From Comamonadaceae bacterium CD01 (GTDB lineage Bacteria; Pseudomonadota; Gammaproteobacteria; Burkholderiales; Burkholderiaceae_C), in the NCBI GenBank assembly GCA_002894305.1, contig PGEI01000032.1, positions 1 to 32,284 of the forward strand: a DNA stretch of 32,284 bases. Reading direction: 5' to 3'. The notes beneath the pieces were generated by a model. The model worked only from the letters and a program-made list of their open reading frames with translations. It made no database searches and had not been told where the DNA came from. Both the position numbers and the translations under genes were made by a program. Shown here in pieces: positions 124 through 30,891 of the stretch (its first letter is position 1; every line of letters starts with the position of its first letter).

Positions 124-165
124 CGTCCAAATGGACGATGACCCCCGCGAGTGATTTCCCACAAT
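124..165 (+). promoter_or_regulatory. Candidate operator and promoter for the enoate reductase gene
   Basis: A copy of the shared cluster element, CGTC-N6-GACGATG, covers 124-140. It is followed after 19 bases by CACAAT (160-165), a four-of-six match to a -10 hexamer. If this is a promoter, transcription would start near 172, downstream of the GTG at 151, so the ATG at 199 would be the start codon. On the opposite strand a degenerate relative (TAGTC near 93-98) sits about 45 bp before etfB, so the region could serve both divergent genes. The motif is read from sequence; its function is inferred from recurrence. Confidence 0.5.
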
Positions 166-198
166 GGGCTTCACAACCGCATCCACCCCCACACGAAT

Positions 199-2328
199 AT
201 GGCCACCACTTCCTATGACGCGCTGCTGCAGCCCGGCAGCATCGGCACATTGCAACTGCGCAACCGCATCGCCCTGGCGCCCATGGGCGAGAACTTCGGC
301 GGCACCGACGGCCACGCGACCGAGAAGACCCAGGCGTACTACGAGGCACGCGCACGTGGCGGCGCGGGCCTGATCATCCTGGGCACGACGGCCGTGTCCT
401 GGCCCAGCGGCACCAGCGAGCCGCACCAGCTGGGTATCTCCAAGGACGAGTTCATCCCTACGCTGGCCGAGGTGGTGCGCCGCATCCACGCGCATGGCGC
501 CAAGGCGGCGATACAGATCAACCACAGCGGCAAGGTGGCCGCCAACGACCGCGCGCATGGGCGCGAGATGTGGGTGCCTTCGGTGCCGCCGGAGCTGCCG
601 CCCAACAAGGCCATGCTCATGATCACCAGGCAGGAGCTGTCGACCTTCGTCGGCGTCGGGCCGTACCCGGATCGCTACCGCGTGATGGACGAGGCCGACA
701 TGGCGCAGATGGTCGAGTGGTATGCCGCGGCGGCCGTGCGCGCCCAGCAGGCGGGCTTTGACGCGGTGGAGGTGCACTGCGCGCACAACTACATCATTGC
801 CGGCTTTCTCTCGCCGTACTTCAACCAGCGCACCGATGGCTACGGCGGCAGCCATGCCAACCGCACGCGGCTGATGCGCGAGGTGTTGGCCGAGGTGCGC
901 CGGCGCGTCGGCCCCGATTTTCCCGTCTGGGTGCGGCTGGATGCCGAGGAGATGCATACGCCCGGTGGCATCGAGCTGCAGGAGGCGCTGGAGAATGCGC
1001 GCATCTGCGAGTCGTTGGGCGTGGACGCGATCAGCGTCTCGGCCTATGCGCGCATGACCTGCGGCAGCGATTTCACCGATGCGCCGATTCCGCAGCAAAG
1101 CGGCGCCTACCTGGAGTACGCCCGGGCGTTCAAGCGCGCGGTCAAGCTGCCCGTCATCGTCGCCGGGCGCGTCGAGCCCGAGGTGGGCGATGCGTCGATC
1201 CGCGCCGGCGAGGTCGATTTCGTCGCAATGGGGCGCAAGCTGCTGGCCGACTCCGACCTGCCCAACAAGCTGCAGGCCGGCAAGCCGCAGGACGTGCGCC
1301 CCTGCATCTACTGCTACGCCTGCGTCAGCGAGATCTTCGTCAACCGCGGCATCAAGTGCGCGGTCAACGCGCAGACCGGCCATGAACACGAGGCACCCAT
1401 CGTCCCGGCCGAGCAGCCCCGTCAGGTGCTGATCGTCGGCGGCGGGCCCGCGGGCATGGAGGCGGCGCGCGTGGCGGCGCTGCGCGGGCACCGGGTGACG
1501 CTGGTCGAGCGCAGCAACCGCCTGGGCGGCACGCTGTTCTTTGCCGGCCTGGCCTATCCAGAGAATGGCCGCCTGCTGGATTACCTGGTGCGCCAGATGC
1601 AGCACCCCAACATCACGGTGGAGCTGAATACGACGGCGGACGCGGCGCTGCTGGCGCGCGTGCGCCCCGACGCCATCCTGGTCGCGACAGGCGCCAAACG
1701 TGCGGCGCCCGCCATCGAGGGCGCTCAGCAAAACCACGTGTGGAGCGGCGACGAGCTGCGCCGCCTGATGACGGGCGACGGCGCCGACGAGATCGCACGG
1801 GCCAAGCTCGGCCTGGCCGAGCGCGCGCTGTTCAAGGCCGGCGGCATGCTGGGCGTGACCGACAGCGCGGCCGCGCTGCAAGGCCTGTCCAAGCTGTGGA
1901 TGCCGCTGGGCAAGCGGGTCGTCGTCGTCGGCGGCGGCCTGGTGGGGCTGGAGCTGGCGGAGTTTCTGCTGGCGCGCGGGCGGCAGGTGACGGTGCTGGA
2001 GCCGGGAACCCACGCCGGCACCGAGCTGTCCATCGTGCGGCGCTGGCGCGTGGTCGAGGCGGTGCAGGCCCATGGCACGCTGCACCTGCAGGCGCAGGTG
2101 CAAAGCATTGGGCGCAAGCAGGTGCAATGGCTGGACAAAAAGGGACAGGCGCACAGCACCGATGCCGATTCCGTCGTGCTGGCGCTGGGCGCCGAGCCCG
2201 ATGCCAGCGTGGCCGAGCAGCTGCAGGCGCTGACCGAGGTGCCGGTGCAGCGCCTGGGAGACAGCGAGACGCTGGGCTATATCGAGGGCGCGATGCACAC
2301 CGGCCACCACGCCGGGCGTACCGTGTGA
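199..2328 (+). CDS. NADH:flavin oxidoreductase, FadH/BaiCD/BaiH-type (FMN, 4Fe-4S, FAD)
   Basis: This 709-residue protein has the three-part plan of 2,4-dienoyl-CoA reductase and of the bile-acid ene-reductases BaiCD and BaiH. An Old Yellow Enzyme-type TIM barrel fills roughly residues 1-360, with the active-site stretch HCAHNYIIAGFLSP near residue 193 followed by the NQRTDGYGGS signature. A 4Fe-4S cluster motif follows (Cys369, Cys372, Cys375, Cys387). A FAD-binding GGGPAG is near residue 413 and an NAD(P)-binding GGGLVG near 577. It should reduce an activated C=C bond in the cytoplasm using NAD(P)H. In this cluster the substrate may be a dienoyl-CoA or a 3-oxo-4-ene/4,6-diene steroid. I chose the ATG at 199 because family members begin close to the barrel and the putative promoter lies at 124-165; the in-frame GTG at 151 would add 16 unrelated residues. 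Neither start has a strong ribosome binding site. The exact substrate is not known. Confidence 0.85.
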   Translation: MATTSYDALLQPGSIGTLQLRNRIALAPMGENFGGTDGHATEKTQAYYEARARGGAGLIILGTTAVSWPSGTSEPHQLGISKDEFIPTLAEVVRRIHAHGAKAAIQINHSGKVAANDRAHGREMWVPSVPPELPPNKAMLMITRQELSTFVGVGPYPDRYRVMDEADMAQMVEWYAAAAVRAQQAGFDAVEVHCAHNYIIAGFLSPYFNQRTDGYGGSHANRTRLMREVLAEVRRRVGPDFPVWVRLDAEEMHTPGGIELQEALENARICESLGVDAISVSAYARMTCGSDFTDAPIPQQSGAYLEYARAFKRAVKLPVIVAGRVEPEVGDASIRAGEVDFVAMGRKLLADSDLPNKLQAGKPQDVRPCIYCYACVSEIFVNRGIKCAVNAQTGHEHEAPIVPAEQPRQVLIVGGGPAGMEAARVAALRGHRVTLVERSNRLGGTLFFAGLAYPENGRLLDYLVRQMQHPNITVELNTTADAALLARVRPDAILVATGAKRAAPAIEGAQQNHVWSGDELRRLMTGDGADEIARAKLGLAERALFKAGGMLGVTDSAAALQGLSKLWMPLGKRVVVVGGGLVGLELAEFLLARGRQVTVLEPGTHAGTELSIVRRWRVVEAVQAHGTLHLQAQVQSIGRKQVQWLDKKGQAHSTDADSVVLALGAEPDASVAEQLQALTEVPVQRLGDSETLGYIEGAMHTGHHAGRTV

Positions 2329-2462
2329 CGGTCTCGCGCCGCGCGGTTTCCGATCTAGGGTTTTGGGCCCGTGTAGGGGTCCGCCTCGGGCCGATGGGCG
2401 CGCTGCGCCGGCGTTGATCGCGGCGCGGGCGTTTGCCGGCGGCTATCGGCCAGAGGGCTAGC

Positions 2463-2609
2463 CTCCTATTGATCCGGCCCCGTAATGTTTGAACCCGTCG
2501 CCCCGGCGAAAGCCGGGGCCCAGATACCCCCCACCAGCGTTGGCACTGGATTGCGGCTTTCGCCGCAATGACGAAACCTCAAAATTTCAAGGGGCCGGAT
2601 CAATAGGAG
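2463..2609. repeat. MITE-like element with 19-bp terminal inverted repeats
   Basis: The 300-base space between the convergent reductase and regulator genes (2329-2628) has no gene but holds this structured element. Its ends are perfect 19-base inverted repeats (2463-2481 and 2591-2609, reading CTCCTATTGATCCGGCCCC inward). Inside are two perfect 8-bp hairpins with tetraloops: GCCCCGGC/gaaa at 2500-2519 and ATTGCGGC/tttc at 2550-2569. The hairpin cores resemble the 'gcgaaagc' repeats dispersed in many proteobacterial genomes. There is no transposase. It could be a non-autonomous mobile element, and its hairpins could also end transcription from both sides. The rest of the space (2329-2462) shows nothing I can name. 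Confidence 0.7.
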
Positions 2610-2628
2610 CCTGCGCGGCAGAAGCGCG

Positions 2629-3795
2629 TCAGTCCTTGGTGCCCAGCCAGGCGACGCTGTTGAGGAAGATGCGCACCAGTTCCATCTGGCGGCGCACACC
2701 GGTCTTGGAGAAGATGGAGCGCAAGTGCGCCCGCGCAGTGTTGCGGCGGATGTTCAGCGCTTCGGCCGCCTCTTCGAGCGACATGCCGTTGGCCAGCTGG
2801 ATGGCCAGCATGGTCTCGGCCGGCGTGAGCTGGAACAGCTGCTGCGCCAGCTTGACCGGCGGCTGGCTCTTGCTCTCGGAGTCGCGCACGAAGACCGCGA
2901 CGGCCGGGCGCTGCTTGCCCTCGGTCCACTCGTCGGGCGAGATGCTTTGCACCACCACGCCCCAGGCCAGCTGCCCCGAGGGGCGGCCGACCGACAGGGC
3001 TTCGGTCAGCCCCACCTTCTGCTGCGTGCCGTCGTGGTGCAGCGCGTCCTTGATCATGCGTTGCAGCTTGCGGTTGTCGTTGGCGTAGGTGGCTTCGAGC
3101 TGATTGCCGGCGATGCGCAGCCCGTCGTGCTTGTCCAGGATGGACTGGGCCGCCTGGTTGGACTCGATGACGTTGCAGTCCCGGTCGAGCACAACGACGC
3201 CCACCAGAAGCTGCGCCATCGCACGGCTGTACAGCGAGAGCACCTTGCGATCCTGGTGCATCGCCAGGTGCAGGTTCAGCGCGCGCTTGATGTGCGGAAT
3301 CAGGCGCCGGCCCAGGTCTTTGTCGGCGGCGGAAAACGGCGGCTCGTCCTCGCTGCGCGTGACGCGAAAGCCGTAGACCTCGCCTTCGCGCGTGCCGATG
3401 TCGGCGGCCATGACGTGGTACACGCCGTGCGGCGCGCACCAGTCGCGGTAGTAGTCCGAGGCGCGCCACTCGGCGTCGGAGATCACGTCGGCCGTGGTCA
3501 CCAGGCGGTCGGGCTGCACACCGGTGAACGGGCTGACGTTGAGGTTGGGGGTGTACTGCTCCAGCGTGCGCCTGTCCTTGCTGACCGAGACGATCAGGCC
3601 CGCGTCTTCTGCGGTCACGGTGCGCACGATCAGCGAGACATAGTTGCCGTGCAGCTCGTCGCGAATGTGCTCCAGGCAGTCTTCCCAGCCTTCGGCGTTC
3701 AGCGCAGCCTCATACAGCTTGTCCAGGATCTGGCTGAACCGATCCAGGGTGATGGGGCTGTTGTCAGTGCCGGTGGACGGTGCGGGATCGGACAT
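2629..3795 (-). CDS. LuxR-family transcriptional regulator, TeiR/TesR-like
   Basis: The 388-residue protein has a C-terminal GerE/LuxR helix-turn-helix at about residues 320-388 (LTPAETMLAIQLANGMSLEE, then RNTARAHLRSIFSKTGV). The long N-terminal region, with a PAS-like stretch near the middle (VGVVVLDRDCNVIESNQAA), could sense a ligand. No receiver domain is visible. Size and architecture resemble TeiR/TesR, the LuxR-type activator needed for testosterone catabolism in Comamonas testosteroni; this is recalled, not searched. It is the last gene of the minus-strand catabolic train, 82 bp after the thiolase gene, and may have its own promoter. It is the best in-window candidate to bind the repeated GTC-N6-GACGATG element. 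The start at 3795 lacks a clear Shine-Dalgarno sequence, so a few residues are uncertain. Confidence 0.8.
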   Translation of the reverse strand: MSDPAPSTGTDNSPITLDRFSQILDKLYEAALNAEGWEDCLEHIRDELHGNYVSLIVRTVTAEDAGLIVSVSKDRRTLEQYTPNLNVSPFTGVQPDRLVTTADVISDAEWRASDYYRDWCAPHGVYHVMAADIGTREGEVYGFRVTRSEDEPPFSAADKDLGRRLIPHIKRALNLHLAMHQDRKVLSLYSRAMAQLLVGVVVLDRDCNVIESNQAAQSILDKHDGLRIAGNQLEATYANDNRKLQRMIKDALHHDGTQQKVGLTEALSVGRPSGQLAWGVVVQSISPDEWTEGKQRPAVAVFVRDSESKSQPPVKLAQQLFQLTPAETMLAIQLANGMSLEEAAEALNIRRNTARAHLRSIFSKTGVRRQMELVRIFLNSVAWLGTKD

Positions 3796-3877
3796 GGGCA
3801 GGGCAGAGAAGGGGAGGCGGTGGGGGCGCAAGTCTAACGGTTGGCTCCTGCTTGCGCCGCGAAATGATGCTTCAGGT

Positions 3878-5092
3878 TTACACCAGTTCGAATAGCCCTG
3901 CGGCACCCATGCCACCGCCGATGCACATGCTGACCACCGCGTAGCGCACGCCGCGGCGGCGCCCCTCCAGCAGTGCGTGGCCGACCAGGCGCGCGCCCGA
4001 CATGCCGAACGGGTGGCCGATGGAGATGGCGCCGCCGTTGACGTTCAGGCGGTCATCGGGAATGCCCAGCTGGTCGCGGCAGTAGATCACCTGGCAGGCA
4101 AAGGCTTCGTTGATCTCCCACAGGCCGATGTCGGCCACAGTGAGGCCGTGGCGCGCCAGCAGCTTGGGGATGGCGAACACCGGGCCAATGCCCATCTCGT
4201 CGGCGCCGCAGCCGGCCACGGCCACGCCGCGGTAGGTGCCCAGCGGCGTGAGGCCGCGTTTTTGCGCCTCGGCGCGGCTCATCAGCACGCTGGCGCTGGC
4301 GCCGTCGGACAGCTGCGAGGCGTTGCCGGCGGTGATGAATTCGCCCTGGGGCACCCATTGGCCGTTCTTCCACACGGGCTTGAGGCTGGCCAGGCTTTCC
4401 AGCGTGGTGCTCGGGCGGTTGCCTTCGTCCTGGGTCAGGGTCACGTCTTCGCGGCCGGCTTCGTTGCCTTCCTTGTCGAACAAGAGCTTGCTCGTCGTGA
4501 GCGGCACGATCTCGTCGGCAAACAGGCCGGCGGCCTGGGCGGCGGCCACGCGCTGCTGGCTTTGCAACGAGTATTCGTCCTGCGCGGCGCGCGAGACCTT
4601 GTAGCGGCGGCTGACGATTTCGGCCGTCTCGATCATCTGGATGTAAGCCGTCGGCATGGCCTCCAGCACGGCCTTGGACTGCGCGCGGTAGCTGTTCTTG
4701 TGCTTGTTCTGCACCAGCGAAATCGATTCGAGGCCGCCGGCGACGGCCACGTCCATCTCGCCCGTCATGATGCCCTTGGCGGCCGTGGCAATGCTCATCA
4801 GGCCCGAGGCGCACATGCGGTCGATGGCCATGCCGCCCACGCTCTCGGGCAGGCCCGCGGTGTAGGTGCACAGGCGTCCCAGGTTGTAGCCCTGAGAACC
4901 CTGCTGCGCGGCAATGCCGAGGATGACGTCGTCCACGTCCTTGCCGTCCACGCCCGCCTTGGCGAGCGCTGCGCGGATCACGTGGCCGCCCAGCACGGGG
5001 GCCTCGGTGTCGTTGAAGGCGCCGCGGTAGGCCTTGCCGATGGGGGTGCGGGCGGTGGAGACGATGACTGCGTCTTGTGCGTTGTTGCTCAT
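3878..5092 (-). CDS. Acetyl-CoA acyltransferase (thiolase)
   Basis: This is a full-length thiolase of 404 residues. The nucleophilic cysteine is Cys94 in [12 protein letters not shown]. The C-terminal catalytic elements are [16 protein letters not shown] (His) and [13 protein letters not shown] (Cys). NEAFA is also present. It should cleave a 3-ketoacyl-CoA with CoA, releasing acetyl-CoA or propionyl-CoA. It differs clearly from the FadA6-type thiolase at 11731-12900, so the cluster has two distinct thiolases. It lies 12 bp after the MaoC hydratase gene and forms a hydratase-dehydrogenase-thiolase run with ipdF. A GAAGGA ribosome binding site precedes the ATG. A role in steroid side-chain or B-ring beta-oxidation, or in late ring C/D products, is possible; the sequence alone does not decide. 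Confidence 0.9.
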
Positions 5093-5104
5093 GAATGCAT
5101 TCCT

Positions 5105-5563
5105 TCAAAAAAACAGGCGGCTGATGGTGTCCACCACGCAGCCGGGCTTGTCCGAACCTTCGATCTGCACGGTGACGCGCACCGTCACCTGCACGCCGTC
5201 GCCCTTGACGGGCTCGGCTGCCACCACCACGCCGTGGCCGCGCACGCGCGAACCCACCGGCACGGGGGAGGGAAAGCGCACCTTGTCGCAGCCGTAGTTC
5301 ACGCCCATCTTCAGCCCCTGGTACTCGACCAGCTGGGGCAGAAACAGGTTGGCCAGCGACAGCGTGAGGTAGCCGTGCGCAATGGTCTTGCCGAACGGGC
5401 CGTCCTTGGCACGCTCGGGATCGACGTGGATCCACTGGTGGTCGCCCGTGGCGTCGGCAAAGGTGTTGATGCGATCCTGGGTGATGGCCAGCCAGTCGGT
5501 CGTGCCCAGATCCTGGCCGACGGCGGCCTGCACGGCGGCGGCAGAATTGAAAGCCTGCGCCAT
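5105..5563 (-). CDS. MaoC-like enoyl-CoA hydratase (hot-dog fold)
   Basis: The 152-residue protein is a single-domain MaoC/R-hydratase. The hydratase-2 motif is visible: TFADATGDHQWIHVDPERA followed by GKTIAHGYLTLSL, in which the Asp and His of DHQWIH form the usual catalytic pair. Such enzymes add water to trans-2-enoyl-CoAs to give (R)-3-hydroxyacyl-CoAs, and actinobacterial homologues act on steroid side-chain CoA esters. The gene begins 3 bp after ipdF ends and is followed 12 bp later by a thiolase, so the three are almost certainly co-transcribed. The substrate is unknown. Confidence 0.85.
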   Translation of the reverse strand: MAQAFNSAAAVQAAVGQDLGTTDWLAITQDRINTFADATGDHQWIHVDPERAKDGPFGKTIAHGYLTLSLANLFLPQLVEYQGLKMGVNYGCDKVRFPSPVPVGSRVRGHGVVVAAEPVKGDGVQVTVRVTVQIEGSDKPGCVVDTISRLFF

Positions 5564-5566
5564 GGT

Positions 5567-6352: not shown

Positions 6353-6409
6353 GGGGCGGGGATCTCCAGATTGGGTTTTGTCCCTATGGTGTCGCCCCGG
6401 CGCGGGCGG

Positions 6410-6431
6410 CGCATCGTCCGCAAGGACGATG
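6410..6431 (-). promoter_or_regulatory. Palindromic copy of the cluster operator upstream of ipdF
   Basis: An 8-bp perfect inverted repeat, CATCGTCC-GCAA-GGACGATG, spans 6412-6431. Read toward ipdF it matches the shared element CGTC-N6-GACGATG, and by symmetry it matches in the other direction too. It lies about 58 bp before the ipdF ATG. It is the most symmetric copy in the window and hints that the binding protein is a dimer. The symmetry is seen; the binding is inferred. Confidence 0.5.
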
Positions 6432-6486
6432 GGCTGTCTTTGGCTGTGCTGGCATGGCTGGCCGGTGCGAGGGCGTCGATGTTGCT

Positions 6487-6589
6487 GGCCCCCACCCCAG
6501 CCCTCCCCCAAAGGGGGAGGGAGAAACAGCCATCGCCGCCCCGGTATTACTCCTTCCCCCTTTGGGGGAAGGCAGGGATGGGGGCGGCC
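6487..6589. repeat. Paired G/C-tract inverted repeat, copy 1
   Basis: Two related units face each other: a CCCACCCC..CCTCCCCCAAAGGGGGAGG unit and its near reverse complement TCCTTCCCCCTTTGGGGGAAGG..GGGATGGGGG. Each has its own small hairpin, and together they can fold into one large stem. It fills the 266-bp gap between the fadE30-like gene and ipdF. No U-run follows, so it is not a standard Rho-independent terminator. Similar units recur at 8943, 9982 and 12939. Confidence 0.7.
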
Positions 6590-6618
6590 AGCACATCCCC
6601 GCCGTCAATCCCACCTCC

Positions 6619-7791
6619 TCAGCGCGGCATGCCCAGCGCCCGCTCGGCCATCAGGTTGAGCTGGATTTCGTTGCTGCCGGCATAAATCGTGTCGGCGCGG
6701 CTCGACAGCCAGATGTGGCGCAGGCCGTCGTGCAGCGGGTCACCGTCATCCATGTCCGCCGCCGGGCCCAGCACGTCCATGGCCAGCTCGCCCAGGTCGC
6801 GGCGCCAGTTGGACCAGGCGTATTTCGACACGCTGGCCGCGCGCGGGTCGGCCTGCTCGCCGCTGGTGCGCAGCGCGTGGCTGCGCAGGGTGTCCAGGCC
6901 CAGCGCGGCCTGGGCGATGCGCTGGCGCAAGAGCGGGTCACGCGCTGCGCCGTTGGCCTTTGCGGTGGTGATCACGTCCTGCAGCTCGGCGCGGAAATGC
7001 GCCTGCTGGCCCAGAGTGGACGCGCCGCGCTCGCAGCCCAGCAGGTACATGGCCACCTTCCAGCCCTCGCCCGGCGCGCCCAGGTGCAGGCTGGCTTCGG
7101 TGCGCGCACCGTCGAAGAACACTTCGTTGAATTCGCTGCCGCCGGTGATCTGGCGGATGGGGCGGATCTCCACGCCCGGTTGATCAAGCGGCACCAGCAG
7201 AAAAACCATGCCTTTGTGGCGCGGCTGGCCCGGCTGGCGTTCCTCGCAGCGCGCCAGCACAAAAATCCAGTTGGATTCATGCGCCCAGCTGGTCCAGACT
7301 TTTTGCCCGTCGATCATCCATTCGCCAGTGGCCGCGTCGCGCCGCGCGCGGGTGCGCACGCCGGCCAGGTCCGAGCCCGCGCCGGGTTCGGAATAGCCCT
7401 GGGCCCAGTAGTCGGTGCCGGCCAGCACGCCGGGCAGAAAGCGTTTTTTCTGCTCGGGCGTGCCCCAGGCCATCACGGTGGGTGCCAGCAGCGTCTCGCC
7501 GATGTGGCCGATGCGCCCCGGGCCGCCGCAGCGCACGTACTCTTCGTGGAAGATGATTTGCTGCGCCAGCGGCAGGTTGCGCCCGCCATGCTCTGTGGGC
7601 CAGCCCAGGCCGGTCCAGCCGCCACGGGCCAGCTCCTGCTCCCAGCGTTTGGCCAGCTGGGCGTCGTAGTGGGGCGAGCTCAGGCCTGCGGCGCCGCGCA
7701 GCGGGGCAAATTCGCCGCGCAGGTGTTCGTCCATCCAGGCGCGCACTTCGGCGCGAAAAGCTTGTTCTTGGGCGGTTTCATGCAGGTTCAT
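6619..7791 (-). CDS. fadE30: Acyl-CoA dehydrogenase, FadE30-like
   Basis: This is a 390-residue acyl-CoA dehydrogenase. It resembles mycobacterial FadE30 along its length: GLGWPTEHGGR, WAQGYSEPGAGSDLAGV, INGQKVWTS-type WMIDGQKVWTSWAH, PIRQITGGSEFNEVFFD and the tail DTIYAGSNEIQ. FadE30 introduces a double bond into the CoA ester of the hydroxylated HIP intermediate, feeding electrons to ETF. The position of the catalytic glutamate of MCAD-type enzymes (YEG) is Ala here (YAG), as expected for the heteromeric steroid dehydrogenases where the base lies elsewhere. The gene overlaps the end of the next dehydrogenase gene by ATGA (7788-7791), so the two are translationally coupled and probably form an alpha2beta2 complex. 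Confidence 0.87.
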   Translation of the reverse strand: MNLHETAQEQAFRAEVRAWMDEHLRGEFAPLRGAAGLSSPHYDAQLAKRWEQELARGGWTGLGWPTEHGGRNLPLAQQIIFHEEYVRCGGPGRIGHIGETLLAPTVMAWGTPEQKKRFLPGVLAGTDYWAQGYSEPGAGSDLAGVRTRARRDAATGEWMIDGQKVWTSWAHESNWIFVLARCEERQPGQPRHKGMVFLLVPLDQPGVEIRPIRQITGGSEFNEVFFDGARTEASLHLGAPGEGWKVAMYLLGCERGASTLGQQAHFRAELQDVITTAKANGAARDPLLRQRIAQAALGLDTLRSHALRTSGEQADPRAASVSKYAWSNWRRDLGELAMDVLGPAADMDDGDPLHDGLRHIWLSSRADTIYAGSNEIQLNLMAERALGMPR

Positions 7792-8924
7792 GCGGCGGTC
7801 TCCTCGGTGTCGAGCAATTGGCGCGCGACCTGCTCGCGCCACCAGCGCAGCGATCCCAGGCGCTGGCTGCTGGCCTGGGCGCGGCGAAAGTACAGATGGG
7901 GGTCGTATTCCCAGGTAAAGCCCACGCCGCCGTGCAGCTGGATGGACTCGCGCGTGCAGTACAGCGCGGCCTCGGTCGCCTCGCTGATGGCGTGCGCCGC
8001 GGCGCGCAGCAGCACGCCGTCGGCCGGCTCGGTGTCGGCCAGGCAGGCGGCGCCGTAGACGGCCGAGCGGGCGGTCTCCACTGCTACCAGCATCTGGCCC
8101 ACGCGGTGCTTGACGGCCTGGAAGCTGGCGATGGGTTTCTCGAACTGCTGGCGCTCCAGCGTGTAGGCCAGGGACAAGTCCAGCGCCTGCTGCGCCACGC
8201 CAACCTGCTCGGCAGCCAGTGCAATGGCGGCCACGCAGCGCGTGTGCGCAAGCAGTGCCTGCAGCGCCGGGCCGTGGGCGATGCGCTGGGTGGCGTCGAG
8301 CGCTACGTTTTCTGCGGTGACGGTGCCGTGCAGGCGCGTGGCGTCCACGGCGGGCTGCTGGGTAACGGTCAGGCCGAGTGCGTCGGCAGGCACGAGGAAC
8401 AGGCCCCATTCGCCATCGGCCTGCAGCGCGGGCAGCAGCAACTGCTGCGCCACGGGAGCGGATCCGACCTGCGGCCACTGGCCTTGCAGCAGCCAGTGGT
8501 TGTTCTGTGGCGTCGCCTGGGCGCCGACGGTGGGCGCATCGGGTTCGGGCAGTGCCAGGGCAAAGCGCTGTTCACCGCTGGTCAAGGATTGCAGCGCGGC
8601 GTCCACCTGCGGCTGGCCCGCCAGCGCGCGCAGCGCCGTTGCGGCCAGGGCCACGCCGTCGAAGTAGGGCACGCAGGCCAGGCGGTGGCCCAGCTGTTCC
8701 TGCAACAGCGCCAGCTCGACCACGCCCAGGCCCAGGCCGCCCTGGTCCTCGGGGCTGTGGATGCCGCACCAGCCCAGCTCGGCCAGGCCTTGCCACAGGG
8801 CTTCGTTCCAGCCGCCGGGCTGGCTGCCCGCGCTGCGCACGCGCTCGCTGGTGCTGTGCGCGGCAAGGAATTCGGCGGCGCTGTCGACGATCAGGCGTTG
8901 TTCTTCGCTCAGGTTCAAATCCAT
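7788..8924 (-). CDS. Acyl-CoA dehydrogenase, partner subunit of the FadE30-like protein
   Basis: The 378-residue protein belongs to the more divergent acyl-CoA dehydrogenase class that pairs with a canonical subunit in steroid degraders. The N-terminal helical domain includes GWCGIHSPEDQGGLGLG. The middle beta domain is poorly conserved and Ala/Gln-rich. The C-terminal domain carries ERQQFEKPIASFQAVKHRVGQM and QLHGGVGFTWEYDPHLYFRR, which contact FAD and the partner subunit in the family. Its stop codon overlaps the start of the FadE30-like gene. I start it at the ATG at 8924, giving MDLNLSEEQRLIVDS; the open frame extends upstream only through the G/C repeat. It probably cannot act without its partner. 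Confidence 0.85.
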   Translation of the reverse strand: MDLNLSEEQRLIVDSAAEFLAAHSTSERVRSAGSQPGGWNEALWQGLAELGWCGIHSPEDQGGLGLGVVELALLQEQLGHRLACVPYFDGVALAATALRALAGQPQVDAALQSLTSGEQRFALALPEPDAPTVGAQATPQNNHWLLQGQWPQVGSAPVAQQLLLPALQADGEWGLFLVPADALGLTVTQQPAVDATRLHGTVTAENVALDATQRIAHGPALQALLAHTRCVAAIALAAEQVGVAQQALDLSLAYTLERQQFEKPIASFQAVKHRVGQMLVAVETARSAVYGAACLADTEPADGVLLRAAAHAISEATEAALYCTRESIQLHGGVGFTWEYDPHLYFRRAQASSQRLGSLRWWREQVARQLLDTEETAA

Positions 8925-8942
8925 GGCATGGCTCTGCTTTTT

Positions 8943-9054
8943 GCTCCTTCCCCCTTTTGGGGAAGGCAGGGGTGGGGGTTTCTTGCCTGGCGCAGGGGCT
9001 GTGCTTGCGTCGCTGGCCCCCACTCCAGCCCTCCCCCAAAGGGGGGGAGGGAGC
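8943..9054. repeat. Paired G/C-tract inverted repeat, copy 2
   Basis: This copy has the two units in the opposite order to copy 1: CTCCTTCCCCCTTTTGGGGAAGG first, then CCCCCACTCCAGCCCTCCCC with AAAGGGGGGG. About 30 bp of unrelated sequence separate the arms. It occupies nearly all of the 141-bp gap between the SDR gene and the dehydrogenase gene. No T-tract is present. Confidence 0.7.
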
Positions 9055-9065
9055 TGAAAACCGGC

Positions 9066-19045: not shown

Positions 19046-19924
19046 TCAGAACACGGGCAGGGGCAGCTTGGCAAGCGCGTCGGCGCCGCCCACGCGCTCC
19101 AGGTACTGCTCCTGGCTGCACTGCACATAGCGTTCGAAGTAGTGGGCCCAGCCGCCTTCTTCCTTGGCGCTGGCTGCGTACTCCTTGAAGTGCTTGACGT
19201 CGAAGCCGTACAGCGGCGCGCACGAGCTGGGGTGGGCGCCAAAGGGCAGGTGCACGACGGCGTTGGTCTCCGAGCGCTCCCAGGGCACGTAGCGCGCTTC
19301 CTCGCCCTGGGCGAAGTGGCTGCTGTCGACCAGCTCGTCGCAGCTGACGATGGTGTTGCGCGCGGCGCGGGCGAACAGGTCGTCCATGTACAGGTCCGGG
19401 CCCTTGACCTGGCAGACGCCGCGCACGTCGGCGCGATCCACGTGCAGGAGCGCCACGTCCAGCGGCAGCGCGGGCATGGCCACCCACTGCTTGTCGTCGT
19501 AGGGCGAGTCGATCAGCTTGATGTCCGGGTTGACCTTGGGCACGTCGGTGTTCAGGCCCAGGCGGGTGGGGATGAAGGGCACTTGCATGGCGGCGGCTTT
19601 CAGGCCGAGCATGAACATGCCCTCGTCGATCTCCATCACCTCAAGCGCGCCGCTCTGGCGGGCCTTGCGAAAGTACGGCTCCAGCGGAATGAAGTCCAGC
19701 GACACGAAGGCGAAGATCAGCTTCTTGACCTTGCCGGCGGCGCACAGCATGCCCACTTCGGCGCCGCCGTAGGCGACGACGGTGAGATCCTTGACGGGGC
19801 TGCGCAGCAGCTCGCGCACCAGGGCCATGGGCTTGCGCCGCGGGCCCCAGCCGCCGATGCCGACGGTCATGCCGTCCTTGATTTGGGCTACCGCGTCCGC
19901 GGCGCTGATCAGTTTGTTGCTCAT
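19046..19924 (-). CDS. ipdA: IpdA subunit of the ring C-opening COCHEA-CoA hydrolase
   Basis: The 292-residue protein matches IpdA (Rv3551) in MTVGIGGWGPRRKPMALVR at the N-terminus, VAYGGAEVGMLCAAGKVKK and EIDEGMFMLGLKAAA. The glutamate of the DEGM motif (Glu101) corresponds, from memory, to the catalytic glutamate of the mycobacterial enzyme. With IpdB it converts COCHEA-CoA to MeDODA-CoA, opening the last ring; FadA6 then cleaves the product. It starts with a strong AAGGAGG ribosome binding site and lies only 5 bp after the dioxygenase gene. Confidence 0.9.
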   Translation of the reverse strand: MSNKLISAADAVAQIKDGMTVGIGGWGPRRKPMALVRELLRSPVKDLTVVAYGGAEVGMLCAAGKVKKLIFAFVSLDFIPLEPYFRKARQSGALEVMEIDEGMFMLGLKAAAMQVPFIPTRLGLNTDVPKVNPDIKLIDSPYDDKQWVAMPALPLDVALLHVDRADVRGVCQVKGPDLYMDDLFARAARNTIVSCDELVDSSHFAQGEEARYVPWERSETNAVVHLPFGAHPSSCAPLYGFDVKHFKEYAASAKEEGGWAHYFERYVQCSQEQYLERVGGADALAKLPLPVF

Positions 19925-19929
19925 GGCGC

Positions 19930-20911: not shown

Positions 20912-20955
20912 ATTCTGGACAGCGCGGCTGTTGCGGGCATCGTCCGTTGAGACTA
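20912..20955 (-). promoter_or_regulatory. Candidate operator and -10 element for the main catabolic operon
   Basis: Read toward the dioxygenase gene, the element is TTAGTC-TCAACG-GACGATGCC (20936-20956), a strong copy of the shared motif. CAGAAT (20912-20917), a four-of-six -10 match, follows after 20 bases. An mRNA start near 20904 would give a leader of about 60 bases. The site lies between the terminator of the upstream envelope genes and the first gene of the operon, which is where an operon promoter is expected. Confidence 0.5.
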
Positions 20956-20991
20956 ACGAAAACGCACACTGTCGCGGGTTGGACAGGGCGC

Positions 20992-21025
20992 AAAAAAGCA
21001 CCACGCGCCGAGGGGCGGGTGGTGC
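20992..21025 (-). terminator. Rho-independent terminator after the DUF1329 gene
   Basis: On the minus strand GCACCAC..GCC pairs with GGCG..GTGGTGC (20998-21025, 12-bp stem with one mismatch and a four-base loop), and six T residues follow almost directly. It ends the DUF1302-DUF1329 transcript, so the dioxygenase operon downstream must have its own promoter. Confidence 0.85.
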
Positions 21026-21034
21026 CAAAAACCG

Positions 21035-21056
21035 TGGATCCAGTCGCCTGGATCCA
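21035..21056. repeat. Short perfect palindrome after the DUF1329 stop codon
   Basis: TGGATCCAG and CTGGATCCA form a 9-bp perfect inverted repeat around TCGC. It lies between the stop codon of the DUF1329 gene and the terminator. It may be part of a double hairpin that protects the 3' end of the mRNA. Confidence 0.55.
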
Positions 21057-22461: not shown

Positions 22462-22494
22462 CTTTGCGATCCTGGTTTTCTCTGGAAACGGGGT

Positions 22495-24153: not shown

Positions 24154-24240
24154 GGGGAATCTCCTTGGGGGTTTTGAATGAGGGTTGAGGTGCATCAAAT
24201 CCATGCGGCGCCAGACGATGCCAGCACCCAGGGGGTGGCT

Positions 24241-24259
24241 GCATACCGCGTTCGGACTA
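24241..24259 (-). promoter_or_regulatory. Weaker copy of the cluster operator upstream of the DUF1302 gene
   Basis: Read toward the DUF1302 gene the site is TAGTC-CGAACG-CGGTATGC, which keeps the left half (TAGTC) and the end (ATGC) of the shared element but not the GACG core. It is about 90 bp before the ATG. A GTTTTTC tract precedes TAGTC here as it does in the etfB upstream region. The 231-bp divergent space (24154-24384) contains this site, the stronger plus-strand copy and no gene. Confidence 0.35.
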
Positions 24260-24303
24260 CTGAAAAACCCCGCTGAGGGTTGTCCCTGGGGGGCGCGGCG
24301 CGC

Positions 24304-24346
24304 TACTCCTTTTGGACGATGCCGGGGGGCAGGTGTCTTGAATAAT
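24304..24346 (+). promoter_or_regulatory. Candidate operator and -10 element for the RND permease gene
   Basis: TACTC-CTTTTG-GACGATGCC (24304-24323) matches the shared element in the orientation of the permease gene. AATAAT (24341-24346), a five-of-six -10 match, follows after 19 bases, the same distance as upstream of the enoate reductase gene. The site ends about 62 bp before the ATG at 24385. Confidence 0.5.
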
Positions 24347-24384
24347 GGCCGCGTACCTCCCCATTCCCCTGACCTGCGCCTGCC

Positions 24385-26820: not shown

Positions 26821-26854
26821 CAGCCAAGACAGCGGCGTGATTGCTGCTTGATTG

Positions 26855-26880
26855 CGGGACGCCCTGGGCGTCCCGTTTTT
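26855..26880 (+). terminator. Rho-independent terminator after the RND permease gene
   Basis: CGGGACGCC and GGCGTCCCG form a 9-bp perfect stem with a three-base loop (26855-26875), followed by five T residues. It lies 35 bp after the permease stop codon and before the NTF2 gene, which would therefore need a separate promoter; none is obvious in the 20 bp left before its ATG. Confidence 0.92.
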
Positions 26881-26900
26881 GTTGAACTCAGGAAGACTGC

Positions 26901-27365
26901 ATGGACATGCACGCCATCACGGCCCACGTCGCCATCCCCCAGCTGCTGTACCGCTATGGCGAGGCCATCGACCAGGGGCGGCTCACGCAGGCGGCGGCGC
27001 TGTTCGAGCATGCGCGCATCCTGACCGGCGCGCCCCAGCCCCTGGACGCGCAGCAGCTGCTGGCGCTGTGGCGCAAGCTGCTCATCCTCTACCCCTGCGG
27101 CACGCCGCGTACGCGCCACCTGATCACCAACCCCATCGTCGAAGTGGCGCCGGACGGCCGCACGGCGAGCGCGCGCTCGTGCTACACGGTGCTGCAGGCA
27201 GTCGACGGCTTTGCGCTGCAGGTCATCGCCAGCGGTCGCTACCTCGACCGCTTTGAATGCGTGGACGGCGCCTGACGCTTTGCCGAGCGCGACTACCGGC
27301 AGATGGATTTCGTCGGCGACATGAGTCGCCACGTGCAGTGGCCACAGCGCGGCGAAGCTTCATAG
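26901..27365 (+). pseudogene. NTF2/SnoaL-like protein interrupted by an in-frame TGA
   Basis: An ATG with a well-placed AGGAAG starts a SnoaL-like protein of 124 residues that stops at TGA (27273-27275). The same frame then continues for another 29 codons to a TAG (27363-27365). The continuation reads RFAERDYRQMDFVGDMSRHV, which is the typical C-terminal strand of this family, where the residue before RFAERDY is normally Trp. So TGG appears changed to TGA. The upstream part keeps Tyr19, Asp24 and His73, the three positions used by the bile-acid dehydratase BaiE. Losing the last strand would probably destabilise the fold. It may be a recent pseudogene, a sequencing error or a leaky stop. It is the only plus-strand gene of the right-hand module. 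Confidence 0.8.
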
Positions 27366-27393
27366 CGCGCCTGGGCAGAAGCGGGGGGTGTTG

Positions 27394-27458
27394 TGGGAGT
27401 GGCGCCTTTGTGGGAGCGGCGCCCTCGCCGCGATGAGTGCCGGCGAGACGCCGGCACT
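27394..27458. repeat. REP-like hairpin pair
   Basis: Between the interrupted NTF2 gene and the Old Yellow Enzyme gene, GTGGGAGCGGCG-type sequence forms one hairpin (GCGGCG/CGCCGC, 27416-27431). A second hairpin follows (AGTGCCGGCG/CGCCGGCACT, 10 bp perfect, 27436-27458). A partial direct copy of the GTGGGAG unit precedes it at 27393. The TGTGGGAGCGGC start resembles REP sequences of gamma- and betaproteobacteria. Confidence 0.6.
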
Positions 27459-27470
27459 CCGGCACCATGC

Positions 27471-27498
27471 AAAACGCCCCGGGGTTGCCAGGGCGTTA
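27471..27498 (-). terminator. Terminator after the Old Yellow Enzyme gene
   Basis: On the minus strand AACGCCC...GGGGCGTT forms a stem (27473-27497) ending in four T residues. It lies about 20 bp after the stop codon of the Old Yellow Enzyme gene and closes the SDR-SDR-NTF2-OYE operon. Confidence 0.75.
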
Positions 27499-27518
27499 TG
27501 TGAGAGCAAGTGGCTATT

Positions 27519-28595
27519 TCAAGCCGTCGCGGTGGCCGCCAGCGGGTAGTCGGTGTAGCCGGCTGCGCCCGCGGTGTACAGCGTGCGCCGGTCGAAACGC
27601 GCCAGCGGCAGGCCTGCGCGCAGGCGCTGCACCAGGTCGGGGTTGGCGATGAAGTGGCGCGCAAACGAGATGGCCTCGCCCTCGCCGGCCTGCAGCGCTG
27701 CCTCGGCGCTGGCGCCGTCAAAGCCGTCGTTGAGGATCAGCGGGCCGCCGAAGTTGGCGCGCGCCAGCGCGAAGGCGTCGATGTCGTCGACCGAGGCGCG
27801 CATCACGTGCAGATAGGCAAGGCCCAGCGGGCGCGCCTGGCGCATCAGCTCGGCGTGGGTGGCGGCCGAGTCTTCGTCGGCCGTGTCGTTGTAGGTGTTG
27901 CCCGGGTTCAGGCGCAGGCCCACGCGGCCGGCGCCGATGGCGTCGGCCATGGCGGCCAGGCACTCGAAGGCAAAGCGCGCGCGCGCGGTGGCGTTGCCGC
28001 CGTAGGCGTCCTGGCGCGCGTTGGTGTGCGAGCTCAAAAATTGCATGCTCAGGTAGCCGCTGGTGCCGTGCAGCTCCACGCCGTCAAAGCCCGCGTCACG
28101 CGCACGCAGCGCGGCCGCTCGGTGCTCGGCAATCGCCTCTTTCACCTGCTCGGTGGTGAGTGCCTGCGGGTGGTCGAAGGGCTGCATGCCGGCCGCGTCG
28201 GTCCAGATCTCGCCGCGCGCCTGCAGCGCCGACGGCGCCACCGTGGGTACGCCGGCCGGCTTGATGTGCGCGCTGCCAACGCGCCCGCCGTGCATGATTT
28301 GCAGCACGATGCGCCCGCCGCGCTGGTGCACCGCGTCGGTGACGCGGCGCCAGCCGGCGACGTGGGCCGGAGTCTCGATGCCGGGCTGGCGGCAGTAGGC
28401 CTGGCCGGCCACCTCGGGCCAGGTGCCCTCGGCGACGATCAGGCCGGCGTCGGCGCGCGCGCCGTAGTGCTCGGCCATCAGCGCGTTGGGCGTGCCGTCG
28501 GCCTCGGCGCGGTTGCGCGTCATCGGCGCCATCACGATGCGGTTGGCCAGTTGCAGGTCGCCGAGCTGGGTGGGGGTGAACAAAAGCGGTGTCAT
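27519..28595 (-). CDS. Old Yellow Enzyme family ene-reductase
   Basis: The 358-residue protein is a single-domain FMN TIM barrel: LANRIVMAPMTRNRA at the start, GLIVAEGTWPE, VLQIMHGGRVG, then ELHGTSGYLSMQFLSSHTNA with RQDAYGG, and SFARHFIANPDLVQRL for phosphate binding near the C-terminus. It should reduce a C=C bond next to a carbonyl with NAD(P)H. The substrate-binding pair of most family members is His-x-x-Asn or His-x-x-His, whereas this protein has His-Gly-Thr-Ser, so the second position is Ser. The gene follows an NTF2 gene by 33 bp and ends an operon. Reduction of a steroid enone is a reasonable role in this setting. There is no clear Shine-Dalgarno sequence. Confidence 0.88.
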   Translation of the reverse strand: MTPLLFTPTQLGDLQLANRIVMAPMTRNRAEADGTPNALMAEHYGARADAGLIVAEGTWPEVAGQAYCRQPGIETPAHVAGWRRVTDAVHQRGGRIVLQIMHGGRVGSAHIKPAGVPTVAPSALQARGEIWTDAAGMQPFDHPQALTTEQVKEAIAEHRAAALRARDAGFDGVELHGTSGYLSMQFLSSHTNARQDAYGGNATARARFAFECLAAMADAIGAGRVGLRLNPGNTYNDTADEDSAATHAELMRQARPLGLAYLHVMRASVDDIDAFALARANFGGPLILNDGFDGASAEAALQAGEGEAISFARHFIANPDLVQRLRAGLPLARFDRRTLYTAGAAGYTDYPLAATATA

Positions 28596-28628
28596 GGGCG
28601 GGCGAAACAGTTCAAGGGCTGCGCAGCG

Positions 28629-29270
28629 TCAGCGCACGCGGATGCGCGGCGCCGGCGTGCCGCGGCGGATGGTTTTGAGGAATTGCTCCAGCGGGGCGGG
28701 GGCGGCCACTTCGGGCAGGCTGTCCTTGTCCGGGCGCTGGGCCCAGAACTCGCGCCACGAGGGAAACAGGTCGTGGAACGTGCCCCAGTAGGGCTCGCGG
28801 CCGGGCCAGCGCATCTTCATGTCGCCAATCGGCGGCTTGTTCAGGTCGGTGGCGTACCAGTAGCAGGGCAGGCGGCGGCGGAAGTACCACTGGCCGTCGA
28901 TGCGCTCGTAGTCGTCCCAGTACAGCATCTGCATGATGACCCACTCGGGGCCGCATTCATGCTCGTTCTTGGAATAGACCACGCCGGTGGCGTGATCGGC
29001 ATCGACGAACTCGATGATGTGCTGGCCCAGGTGGTGCGAGGTGCCGGTGAACTGGTCGCGCAGCGTGCTGTCCTGCCAGGCCTTGAAGTGCGCGCGGCCG
29101 ACCTTCTCCTTGCCGACGCGGATGTCGGGCGCGAACAGGTTGACGTGGGCGTCCATGTCGCGCATGTCCAGCGACAGCGAGTATTTGCCGGCCAGCTGGC
29201 GGATGGCGTCGAGCGACTCCAGGCGGTCGATGCGCTCTTCCAGCGTGGCGGGCCAGGTGTTTGTGGTCAT
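28629..29270 (-). CDS. NTF2/SnoaL-like protein with BaiE-like catalytic pattern
   Basis: The 213-residue protein has the SnoaL-like alpha+beta barrel pattern: LEERIDRLESLDAIRQLAGK at residues 10-29, then Tyr30 and Asp35 (KYSLSLD), a His pair at 79-80 (TSHHLGQH) and YERIDGQWYFRRR near 135. Tyr, Asp five residues later and a His about 45-50 residues on are the catalytic triad of the bile-acid 7alpha-dehydratase BaiE and of steroid hydratase relatives. The C-terminal extension (RWPGREPYWGTFHDLFPSWR) is longer than in BaiE. It is in an operon with two SDR genes and an ene-reductase. Dehydration of a hydroxysteroid is plausible but unproven; other NTF2 proteins are isomerases or have no catalytic role. 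Confidence 0.82.
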   Translation of the reverse strand: MTTNTWPATLEERIDRLESLDAIRQLAGKYSLSLDMRDMDAHVNLFAPDIRVGKEKVGRAHFKAWQDSTLRDQFTGTSHHLGQHIIEFVDADHATGVVYSKNEHECGPEWVIMQMLYWDDYERIDGQWYFRRRLPCYWYATDLNKPPIGDMKMRWPGREPYWGTFHDLFPSWREFWAQRPDKDSLPEVAAPAPLEQFLKTIRRGTPAPRIRVR

Positions 29271-29284
29271 GGCTGATCCGGGTC

Positions 29285-30052
29285 TTACAAGGCGGTGACG
29301 AGCACGGCGGAGCGCCCGCCGTCGACGGGAAGCGACGCGCCGGTGATGTAGCCGGCCTCGTCGCTGGCCAGGAAGACGATGGCGTGCGCCAGGTCGTCAG
29401 GCTGGCCCACGCGGCCCATCGGGATGAGTTTTTCGGTGGCCTTGCGGCTCTCGTCGGTGGCCAGCATGCCGGCGGTGGCGGGCGTCTCGACCACGGCCGG
29501 GATCACCACGTTGACGCGCACGCCGTGCGGCGCGCCCTCGGCCGCGGCCGCGCGCGAGAAGTTGTCCACCGCCGCCTTGGCCGCGCTGTAGCCCGCCATC
29601 CAGGGCGTGCCCAGTTGTCCGCAGATCGACGAGACATTGACGATGGAGCCGCCCTTGTCCTTCATCAGCTTGAGCGCGGTGCGCGTGCCCCAGAAGCTGC
29701 CGTCGACCGTGGTCTTGAAGTTGGCGTGCCAATCCTCGGTGCTCATCGCCTCGATGGCGCCCCAGGTGTAGGCCATGGCGTTGTTGACCAGGACGTCGAG
29801 CCGGCCGTGGCGCTGTGCGGCGGCCTCGATGGCGCCGACGTACTGCGCCTCGACGCCCACGTCGGCCACGACGGCCTCGGCCTTGCCGCCCGCGGCGCGG
29901 ATCTGCGCCACGACCGCGTCCAGCGGCTCCTGGCGGCGCCCGCAGATGACGACGGTGGCGCCTTCGAGCGCCATGCGCTGCGCGGTGGCCGCGCCAATGC
30001 CGCTGCTGGCGCCCGAGATGAAGGCGACCTTGCCTTGCAGTCGATTACCCAT
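29285..30052 (-). CDS. SDR family oxidoreductase
   Basis: A 255-residue classical SDR: GASSGIGAATAQRMA for NAD(P), NNAMAYTWGAIE, the catalytic Ser and Tyr in VNVSSICGQLGTPWMAGYSAAKAAV, and a C-terminal GYITGASLPVDGGRS. The ATG at 30052 follows AAAGGAG. The gene is 17 bp after the next SDR gene and 14 bp before the NTF2 gene. It probably oxidises or reduces a hydroxyl or keto group of a steroid (hydroxysteroid dehydrogenase), as such SDRs cluster with steroid genes; position and stereochemistry are not visible. Another possibility is a 3-hydroxyacyl-CoA dehydrogenase. Confidence 0.87.
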   Translation of the reverse strand: MGNRLQGKVAFISGASSGIGAATAQRMALEGATVVICGRRQEPLDAVVAQIRAAGGKAEAVVADVGVEAQYVGAIEAAAQRHGRLDVLVNNAMAYTWGAIEAMSTEDWHANFKTTVDGSFWGTRTALKLMKDKGGSIVNVSSICGQLGTPWMAGYSAAKAAVDNFSRAAAAEGAPHGVRVNVVIPAVVETPATAGMLATDESRKATEKLIPMGRVGQPDDLAHAIVFLASDEAGYITGASLPVDGGRSAVLVTAL

Positions 30053-30069
30053 GTTTTTCTCCTTTGTGC

Positions 30070-30801
30070 TCACAAGAAGGCGCTGCCGCCGTTGACGGCC
30101 ACGCTCTGGCCGGTGACGAAGCCGCTGTCGTCGCTGGCCAGGAACACCGCCACCTTGGCGATGTCCTCGGGCTCGGCCATGCGGCCCATGGGCACGCCGG
30201 CAATGATGGCGTCGGCCCATTCCTGGGGGATGCCCTGCATCATCGGCGTGTTGGTCGGGCCGGGCACCAGGGTGTTGACGCGGATGCCGCTCTTGGCCAG
30301 CTCCTTGGCCATCACGCGCGTCAGGCCCTGGATGGCGGCCTTGGAGGTGACGTAGTGCGCCGGGCCGTCGCCGCTCACCGCCGAGGTGCTGCCGACGTTG
30401 ACCACCGCGCCGCCGCCGTTCTTGAGCATGGCGCGCACCGCCGCGCGGGCGCAGTAGAAGGCGCCGTTGAGGTTGACGCCGATCACGCGGGCCCAGGCCT
30501 CGTCACTCATCTCGGTAAAGCTGTCCATGCCGCCGGTGCCGGCGTTGTTGACCAGCACGTCCACGCGGCCGAGCTTTGCGACCACCTCGTCGACCATGGT
30601 GTTGACCGCGGCCGAATCGGCCACGTTGAGCGCCAGCGCCAGGTGCTTGCCCGCCAGGCCGGCCAGCGTCTGCTGCGCGGCCTCCAGGTTCAGGTCCAGC
30701 GCCACGACGGTGGCGCCCTCGGCGGCGAAACGCTGCGCGATCGCGCGGCCCATGCCCTGGCCGGCACCGGTCACCAGCGCCACTTTGTCCTTGAGTTTCA
30801 T
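30070..30801 (-). CDS. SDR family oxidoreductase (FabG-like)
   Basis: A 243-residue classical SDR: MKLKDKVALVTGAGQGMGRA at the start, NNAGTGGMDSF, catalytic VNVGSTSAVSGDGPAHYVTS followed by KAAIQ, and SGFVTGQSVAVNGGSAFL at the end. The start at 30801 has GGAG in front; a longer frame is possible but lacks support. It is the first gene of the SDR-SDR-NTF2-OYE operon, with a strong copy of the shared operator about 72 bp upstream. Likely a hydroxysteroid or 3-hydroxyacyl-CoA dehydrogenase. Confidence 0.86.
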   Translation of the reverse strand: MKLKDKVALVTGAGQGMGRAIAQRFAAEGATVVALDLNLEAAQQTLAGLAGKHLALALNVADSAAVNTMVDEVVAKLGRVDVLVNNAGTGGMDSFTEMSDEAWARVIGVNLNGAFYCARAAVRAMLKNGGGAVVNVGSTSAVSGDGPAHYVTSKAAIQGLTRVMAKELAKSGIRVNTLVPGPTNTPMMQGIPQEWADAIIAGVPMGRMAEPEDIAKVAVFLASDDSGFVTGQSVAVNGGSAFL

Positions 30802-30871
30802 TGTTTGCTCCGATGTTGATCCTGGGGCTTGTGCCCGAGTCGGCTCAAGCGTAAGGACGGCAGGCCGGCGT

Positions 30872-30891
30872 GCCATCGTCCGATGGGACTA
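30872..30891 (-). promoter_or_regulatory. Candidate operator of the SDR-SDR-NTF2-OYE operon
   Basis: Read toward the SDR gene the site is TAGTC-CCATCG-GACGATGGC, a strong copy of the shared element. It also contains the small palindrome CCATCG-TC-CGATGG. It directly adjoins the stop codon of the upstream SDR gene (30892-30894), so it lies in the only gap between the two SDR genes. Confidence 0.5.

Follow-up and report, generated by a model that had tools for sequence, protein, structure and literature searches.

TeiR/TesR has been known since 2004 as an activator of the model steroid degrader Comamonas testosteroni (reference in PMC6678751; statements on cited papers refer throughout to excerpts of them). 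In strain TA441, TesR is required for the induction of tesB-tesR, tesA1-tesG and tesA2-ORF18, and tesR-like genes were reported from C. testosteroni only (PMC6895838). In C. testosteroni JLU460ET, many genes of the cluster were up by log2 4-9 after 3 h of testosterone; the LuxR gene was induced by log2 4.88 and its thiolase, dehydratase and fabG neighbours by 5.07, 5.57 and 5.35 (PMC10637631). An excerpted review calls the regulation in bile-acid degrading Proteobacteria largely unknown. The present analysis concerns a 20-bp DNA element repeated before five transcription units in a contig of Comamonadaceae bacterium CD01 (GenBank assembly GCA_002894305.1, PGEI01000032.1, positions 1 to 32,284 of the forward strand); this whole stretch of 32,284 nucleotides is called the window. 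The element is very probably the operator of a family of activator-dependent promoters for aerobic steroid catabolism, bound by TeiR/TesR. No description of the motif or of a TeiR binding site was found in the literature searched, which left subscription papers outside and included sources in excerpt. Among the matches listed for the string GGACGATG, none was on steroid bacteria by title, and the word 'promoter' is absent from the main text of two recent TA441 papers.

The first-pass annotation of the window had proposed a shared motif, (A/C)GTC-N6-GACGATG, and all five of its copies were found where it had placed them, on the strands it had assigned. The element itself stood, and the consensus is better written as (A/C)GTCY-N4-GGACGATG, within a 20-bp imperfect palindrome. 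The promoter-proximal half GGACGATG is near-invariant and the distal half is looser. In the dyad test, box 2 is perfect (CATCGTCC-TTGC-GGACGATG, readable on both strands) while the other boxes are imperfect in the distal half. The boxes, their -10-like hexamers and the proposed binder are as follows.

121..140, + strand: box 1, ATGCGTCCAAATGGACGATG, before the FadH/BaiH-like gene (start 199); matrix score 25.5; orthologous boxes in genomes G004 and G142
160..165, + strand: -10-like CACAAT, 19 bases past box 1
2629..3795, - strand: teiR/tesR homologue and proposed binder, at the end of the operon that box 2 heads
2674..2844, - strand: residues 318-374 of TeiR, LuxR-type helix-turn-helix (HTH) with recognition helix NTARAHLRSIFSKTG
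6386..6391, - strand: -10-like CACCAT, 20 bases past box 2
6412..6431, - strand: box 2, CATCGTCCTTGCGGACGATG, perfect palindrome heading the ipdF-MaoC-thiolase-teiR operon; score 22.7
20912..20917, - strand: -10-like CAGAAT, 20 bases past box 3
20938..20957, - strand: box 3, GTTAGTCTCAACGGACGATG, before hsaC and the long operon behind it; score 32.5; compared in ten genomes
24302..24321, + strand: box 4, GCTACTCCTTTTGGACGATG, before the RND gene (start 24385); score 18.3
24341..24346, + strand: -10-like AATAAT, 19 bases past box 4
30848..30853, - strand: -10-like TACGCT, 20 bases past box 5
30874..30893, - strand: box 5, AGTAGTCCCATCGGACGATG, before the SDR operon (start 30801); score 24.9

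The copies had been called intergenic, 55-95 bp before a start codon and oriented to the downstream gene. At the coordinates given there they overlap no assigned gene, and the distances from box end to start codon are 58, 59, 93, 63 and 72 bases for boxes 1 to 5. In its 20-bp form, box 5 shares two bases with the stop codon of the gene that ends at 30892.

The five sites are real and far above chance. The strict pattern GTCYN4GGACGATG has five matches on both strands of the window, representing four sites with the palindrome counted twice; box 4, with CTC, falls outside this form. Dinucleotide shuffles of the window (300) gave a mean of 0.01 and a maximum of one strict match, a test partly circular as the motif was derived from this same window. 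A non-circular weight matrix was trained on 35 oriented strict matches from the steroid stretches of G004, G142, G018 and G128, its core columns set by the selection pattern and its flanks and N4 free. In the window, the six best oriented matches of this matrix coincide with the five sites and no others (32.5, 25.5, 24.9, 22.7/22.1 and 18.3), followed by 9.0. In 60 Markov-1 sequences the mean best score was 9.1 and the highest 19.0, with 22 scores above 10 among the top fives. A weaker copy proposed at 24241-24259 did not hold up, being outside the top 14 matrix matches (lowest 6.4). The original motif also matches exactly at 19336-19352, + strand, in the hsaC gene block, with a score of 7.5; this match was taken as a false positive. 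The reverse reading of box 4 (score 6.4) may face the DUF1302 gene too; the G004 box at this position is stronger than box 4 and reads both ways (30.9 and 17.4).

Promoter geometry was analyzed at sites picked regardless of their downstream sequence, those of the own genome scoring at least 15. The sigma-70-like -10 pattern NANNNT is found 19-21 bases after GGACGATG at 12 of 14 oriented sites in the own genome, 67 of 81 in the family and 38 of 51 in distant genomes, with coding matches and palindromes read in both directions counted in the denominators. The corresponding counts in eight equally wide control windows were 0-1, 3-10 and 0-10. The exceptions in the own genome are 6416+, the outward palindrome reading of box 2, and 24125+, an additional match on contig C149 (score 15.1). 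The -10-like hexamers noticed earlier at three sites are present, though the number was too low, as NANNNT follows all five boxes after 19, 20, 20, 19 and 20 bases. With a -10 beginning at -12, the 19-21-base spacing predicts that the dyad is centred at about -42.5 and overlaps the -35 region, the classical class II position of LuxR-type activators. The overlap with -35, the dimer symmetry and the activator geometry suggested in the first-pass annotation are supported by this fixed spacing. The outward reading of box 2 (window 6412-6431, + strand) scores 22.1 and, pointing towards the end of the acyl-CoA dehydrogenase gene 6619-8478, is not followed by a -10 at 19-21 bases.

The window is the entire contig C138 of a draft assembly of 3.76 Mb in 212 contigs. 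On the basis of Pfam and NCBIfam it possesses a FadH/BaiH-like flavoenzyme, a LuxR/GerE protein, thiolases, a MaoC protein, SDRs, acyl-CoA dehydrogenases, an amidase, enoyl-CoA hydratases, an hsaC-like dioxygenase, DUF1329, DUF1302, an RND/MMPL transporter, and OYE and SnoaL proteins; it is a proteobacterial 9,10-seco steroid cluster. Across the whole genome the strict pattern has ten matches and its reversed control none. Five matches lie on C138 (one site twice), three on C149, one on C3 and one on C158. Contig C149 carries DUF1302, DUF1329, enoyl-CoA hydratase and aldehyde dehydrogenase genes, and by matrix it has five sites with six orientations followed by a -10 (26417+/26428-, 7791-, 1931-, 6832- and 124-). 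The box on C3 precedes an hsaA-like gene 88.5% identical to its G004 counterpart, and the match on C158 scores 7.4 within a long open frame. Matches to the wider strict form GTCN5GGACGATG on C33, C66, C133, C156 and C158 lie in long open frames with scores of at most 14.6 (the C33 match below 5) and were treated as coding background.

The same concentration is observed in other genomes, the strict-match positions being those among the matches listed. G004, a genome in one contig, has 13 strict matches at 11 sites, all at 2.02-2.10 or 2.516-2.522 Mb; both regions contain homologues of the steroid contigs of the present genome, and 9 of the 11 sites are within 100 kb of teiR (p about 1e-10). When the -10 was added to the pattern, 14 of 19 matches in G004 fell in the steroid regions and the control gave none. 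In C. testosteroni NFYY023 (G128), 7 of 10 strict matches are within 100 kb of tesR. Nine of ten places in G142 (eight sites, one coding) are on the teiR contig, 4 of 5 matches in G018 are clustered, and with the -10 added 8 of 10 are clustered in G447. In G210, which has two teiR paralogues, five of 18 matches lie close to them at 3.29-3.48 Mb. Of 12 matches in G467, the one at hsaC and two more are near teiR (one further match is coding), and 2 of 16 in G180 are near hsaC. In G444 none of two matches is clustered, and the eight of G052 are spread over eight contigs. The first-pass annotation had named hits random to gene starts as evidence against the element. The distribution is non-random where a close TeiR is present, with 9 of 10 places of the present genome on contigs with steroid genes, 13 of 13 in the two steroid regions of G004 and 7 of 10 within the 100 kb around tesR in G128.

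To assess conservation, ten hsaC promoters were compared, from the present genome, G004, G142, G018, G128, Burkholderia arboris, Caballeronia SBC2, G447, G210 and G467, of which G447 and G210 represent other orders of the class. Mean pairwise identity is 85% in the box and 84% in the -10, and falls to 30% upstream, 37% between and 37% after; the alignment was anchored on the box, a choice that raises the identity of the box but not that of the -10. Although outside the dyad core, the four central bases (N4) of the hsaC box (CAAC/CAAT/CATC) show 86% mean identity across genera and orders. Conservation before orthologues, the other check proposed earlier, was found at hsaC in ten of ten TeiR-bearing genomes, and in addition in Vibrio and in G180, which belongs to another class (score 20.1). 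Several genomes also have orthologous boxes ahead of their SDR, ipdF, enoyl-CoA hydratase, aldehyde dehydrogenase, FadH and RND units; box 2 has orthologues upstream of ipdF in G004, G142, G018, G128 and G094, and box 5 has orthologues in G004, G142, G018, G128, G447 and G210. On plasmid pVa1 of Vibrio alfacsensis (45% guanine plus cytosine), boxes are situated upstream of hsaC, hsaA, etfB-etfA-teiR and an enoyl-CoA hydratase gene, each before an annotated coding sequence. This plasmid carries a Vibrio steroid-degradation cluster (L187, 6545-39614) with an hsaC operon order like that of the window and its own TeiR homologue at 41% identity. In the window, terminator-like hairpins at 20997-21056 on the - strand separate DUF1329 from box 3, as would be expected if transcription started anew at hsaC.

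The LuxR/TeiR-like protein had been named as the obvious candidate binder, and from sequence it remains the best candidate: occurrence of the box tracks the TeiR clade, box carriers share the recognition helix, and the teiR gene itself belongs to an operon headed by a box. The window TeiR matches the GerE HTH with 26.0 bits (cut-off 23.5) and is 65% identical to C. testosteroni homologues. Among 150 genomes of the family, five have hsaC (E 1e-60) and all five also have TeiR (E below 1e-160). Among 398 Pseudomonadota genomes, hsaC was found in eight (E 1e-50) and TeiR in seven (E 1e-40); six of these eight hsaC genes have a box, and all six occur with a TeiR at 33-100% identity. No box was found at hsaC of G444 (TeiR 31%), of G269 (no TeiR at 1e-40) or of Novosphingobium aromaticivorans pNL2 (best TeiR-like protein 28%). 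Of 25 plasmid records with an hsaC-like match, the analysis covered five (H1, H2, H7, H16 and the record of H20). Taken over all hsaC or hsaC-like loci examined, 12 of 16 have the box, and the four without it have no TeiR homologue above 35%. The HTH of box carriers retains the recognition helix NTARxHLR, from which LuxR relatives at about 26% identity differ. Eight of 17 loci of TeiR-clade genes have a match of at least 15, and the 22 loci of distant LuxR genes (88 kb) together have a single one. The Caballeronia teiR has a box directly upstream. Second TeiR paralogues of Comamonas (L075-L080) have their own TTGACGATG-type box 230-330 bases upstream, hinting at cross-regulation.

In the window, teiR comes after ipdF, MaoC and thiolase genes on one strand, the successive genes being 3, 12 and 82 bases apart. 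As the last gene of an operon led by the perfect palindrome, teiR is predicted to be autoactivated. A TeiR/TesR dimer of LuxR type, probably triggered by a steroid or steroid metabolite, would bind the 20-bp dyad centred near -42.5. The bound protein would replace the absent -35 element and, by class II activation, bring sigma-70 RNA polymerase to the NANNNT some 20 bases further downstream. The circuit would amplify itself, as teiR ends the ipdF operon that opens with the palindrome. Regarding the sensor part, no autoinducer-domain Pfam match was found in the window TeiR at 1e-3. Its AlphaFold model, of modest confidence (mean predicted local distance difference test score 63.5), resembles the ligand domain of VqsR (template modelling score 0.73 by target length) and also GAF domains; Foldseek matches including bacteriophytochromes, RhlR, SdiA, VqsR and CepR2 give a hint only.

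Other explanations of the element were weighed. Coding or repeat noise of a high-GC genome could produce such matches, and loose patterns are indeed noisy: the window has 86 two-mismatch matches against 19.7 expected, and the genome has 304 one-mismatch matches against 179 for the reversed pattern, for which reason loose patterns were rejected as a genome scan. Coding matches do occur, for example within ipdF of Burkholderia, Caballeronia and G467; matches scoring 22.9-24.4 inside ipdF orthologues (L115 32515, L116 32640 and G467 C2 1333424) were taken as such background. However, the strict pattern, alone or with the -10, separates better than the loose ones, strict matches are concentrated at steroid promoters, box and -10 are conserved while the flanks are not, and a single match of at least 15 appeared in the 88 kb near distant LuxR genes. 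Noise as the main explanation is already refuted by these cross-genome tests, and the chance left to it is the slimmest of all. The element might also be the -35 part of an alternative-sigma promoter and no activator site, an idea favoured by the fixed -10 distance and the strongly conserved proximal half. Sigma factors are not known to need a dyad, and the usual sigma spacers are shorter than the 20-base gap, so both features count against this proposal. The distal GTCY and the bases preceding it are conserved as part of the 20-bp dyad, perfect in one copy (the core columns being fixed by the selection pattern), and the -10 is sigma-70-like, which makes this origin very improbable.

A more serious rival keeps the activator operator and assigns it to another regulator of the cluster, of LysR, XRE or TetR type, with TeiR as an upstream sensor kinase. 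TeiR appears in reviews as a polar, kinase-active membrane protein (PMC6678751, PMC8399759), a point that also weighs directly against TeiR as the binder, and the JLU460ET cluster has LysR and XRE genes (PMC10637631). But in the same strain the LysR genes changed by log2 1.4 or not at all, against the strong induction of the LuxR gene (PMC10637631). TeiR is the sole protein with a regulator domain among the window proteins scanned (all but a few frames), a TeiR-like protein is the sole annotated transcriptional regulator of pVa1 between hsaC and the last acyl-CoA dehydrogenase gene, and conservation of the box goes along with that of the GerE HTH and its recognition helix. Judged from the regulators of the window, pVa1 and JLU460ET, assignment to another regulator is accordingly unlikely.

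Several further observations also speak against TeiR/TesR as the binder, or against the element as its mark. The TesR-dependent tesA1-tesG unit, that is the divergent hsaB/hsaD/hydratase/aldehyde dehydrogenase/aldolase operon, has only the weak site CTAGTCCATGTGAAGGATT (9.2 in G128 and 11.2 in G004). Sphingobium TomTYG64 lacks a box at hsaC despite a 35% TeiR homologue elsewhere, and in 41 kb of Cupriavidus necator C39, which has a 41% homologue, the matches were no better than weak (18.8, 16.9 and 15.9). Total strict counts do not mark TeiR carriers, as G104 has 11 and G115 has 10 with no TeiR match at 1e-10, and the reversed pattern, used as control, matched 7 times in G447 against 10. No box was found within the 1.5 kb flanks of the seven closest teiR genes, which is accounted for by the position of the box at the operon start. 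On the TomTYG64 plasmid with the 35% homologue, a degenerate box GTCTCTTCGGACGAAG (the GGACGAAG site, L188 12731, score 20.0) precedes a kshA gene and is possibly an alphaproteobacterial variant.

On balance, the element is a genuine cis-element defining a regulon with activator geometry, and most likely the TeiR/TesR box; from the evidence above we infer TeiR as its binder, activation as its effect and a steroid as the signal. A broader picture is offered tentatively, with somewhat more doubt than belief: TeiR would be a LuxR-type DNA-binding steroid receptor that runs one self-amplifying regulon through a single box at -42.5, by a code shared across Pseudomonadota. In that picture an N-terminal GAF/autoinducer-receptor fold together with a PAS-like domain may sense the steroid. 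If true, the code of box and regulator is common to Comamonas, Burkholderia, a plasmid of Vibrio and G180, whose lineage falls outside the class, and it contradicts both the membrane-kinase model and the confinement of tesR to C. testosteroni. A defined box at a defined promoter position opens TeiR regulation to direct experiment and has a bearing on the choice between TeiR as DNA-binding activator and TeiR as membrane kinase. It also makes the regulon predictable from sequence in bacteria which clear hormones and bile acids from water and soil, and provides a promoter part for steroid biosensors.

Among known systems, the lux box and other class II promoters of LuxR-type regulators have a 20-bp dyad centred near -42.5, no -35 element and a regulator with a GerE-type HTH. 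The present element is alike in the 20-bp dyad, the centre (predicted here), the missing -35 and the GerE HTH of the proposed binder. It differs in its half-site GGACGATG, in a TeiR without Pfam autoinducer domain and in its function in steroid catabolism. To the C. testosteroni TeiR/TesR regulon it is linked by a homologous regulator and by the TesR-dependent tesB and tesA2 units, which open with a strong box in NFYY023 (31.6 before tesB and 30.2 before the hsaA-like tesA2 gene). That regulon, in the published excerpts, differs in that no binding site is described, TeiR is presented as a polar membrane kinase and tesR-like genes as limited to C. testosteroni (PMC6895838, PMC6678751, PMC8399759). 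KstR and KstR2 of actinobacteria similarly place dispersed steroid catabolic units under one regulator, but as excerpted they are TetR-type repressors, unrelated to the proposed LuxR-type activator. EdcR of Caenibius tardaugens likewise governs a proteobacterial steroid gene cluster, in its case described as an estrogen-dependent repressor (PMC8700777).

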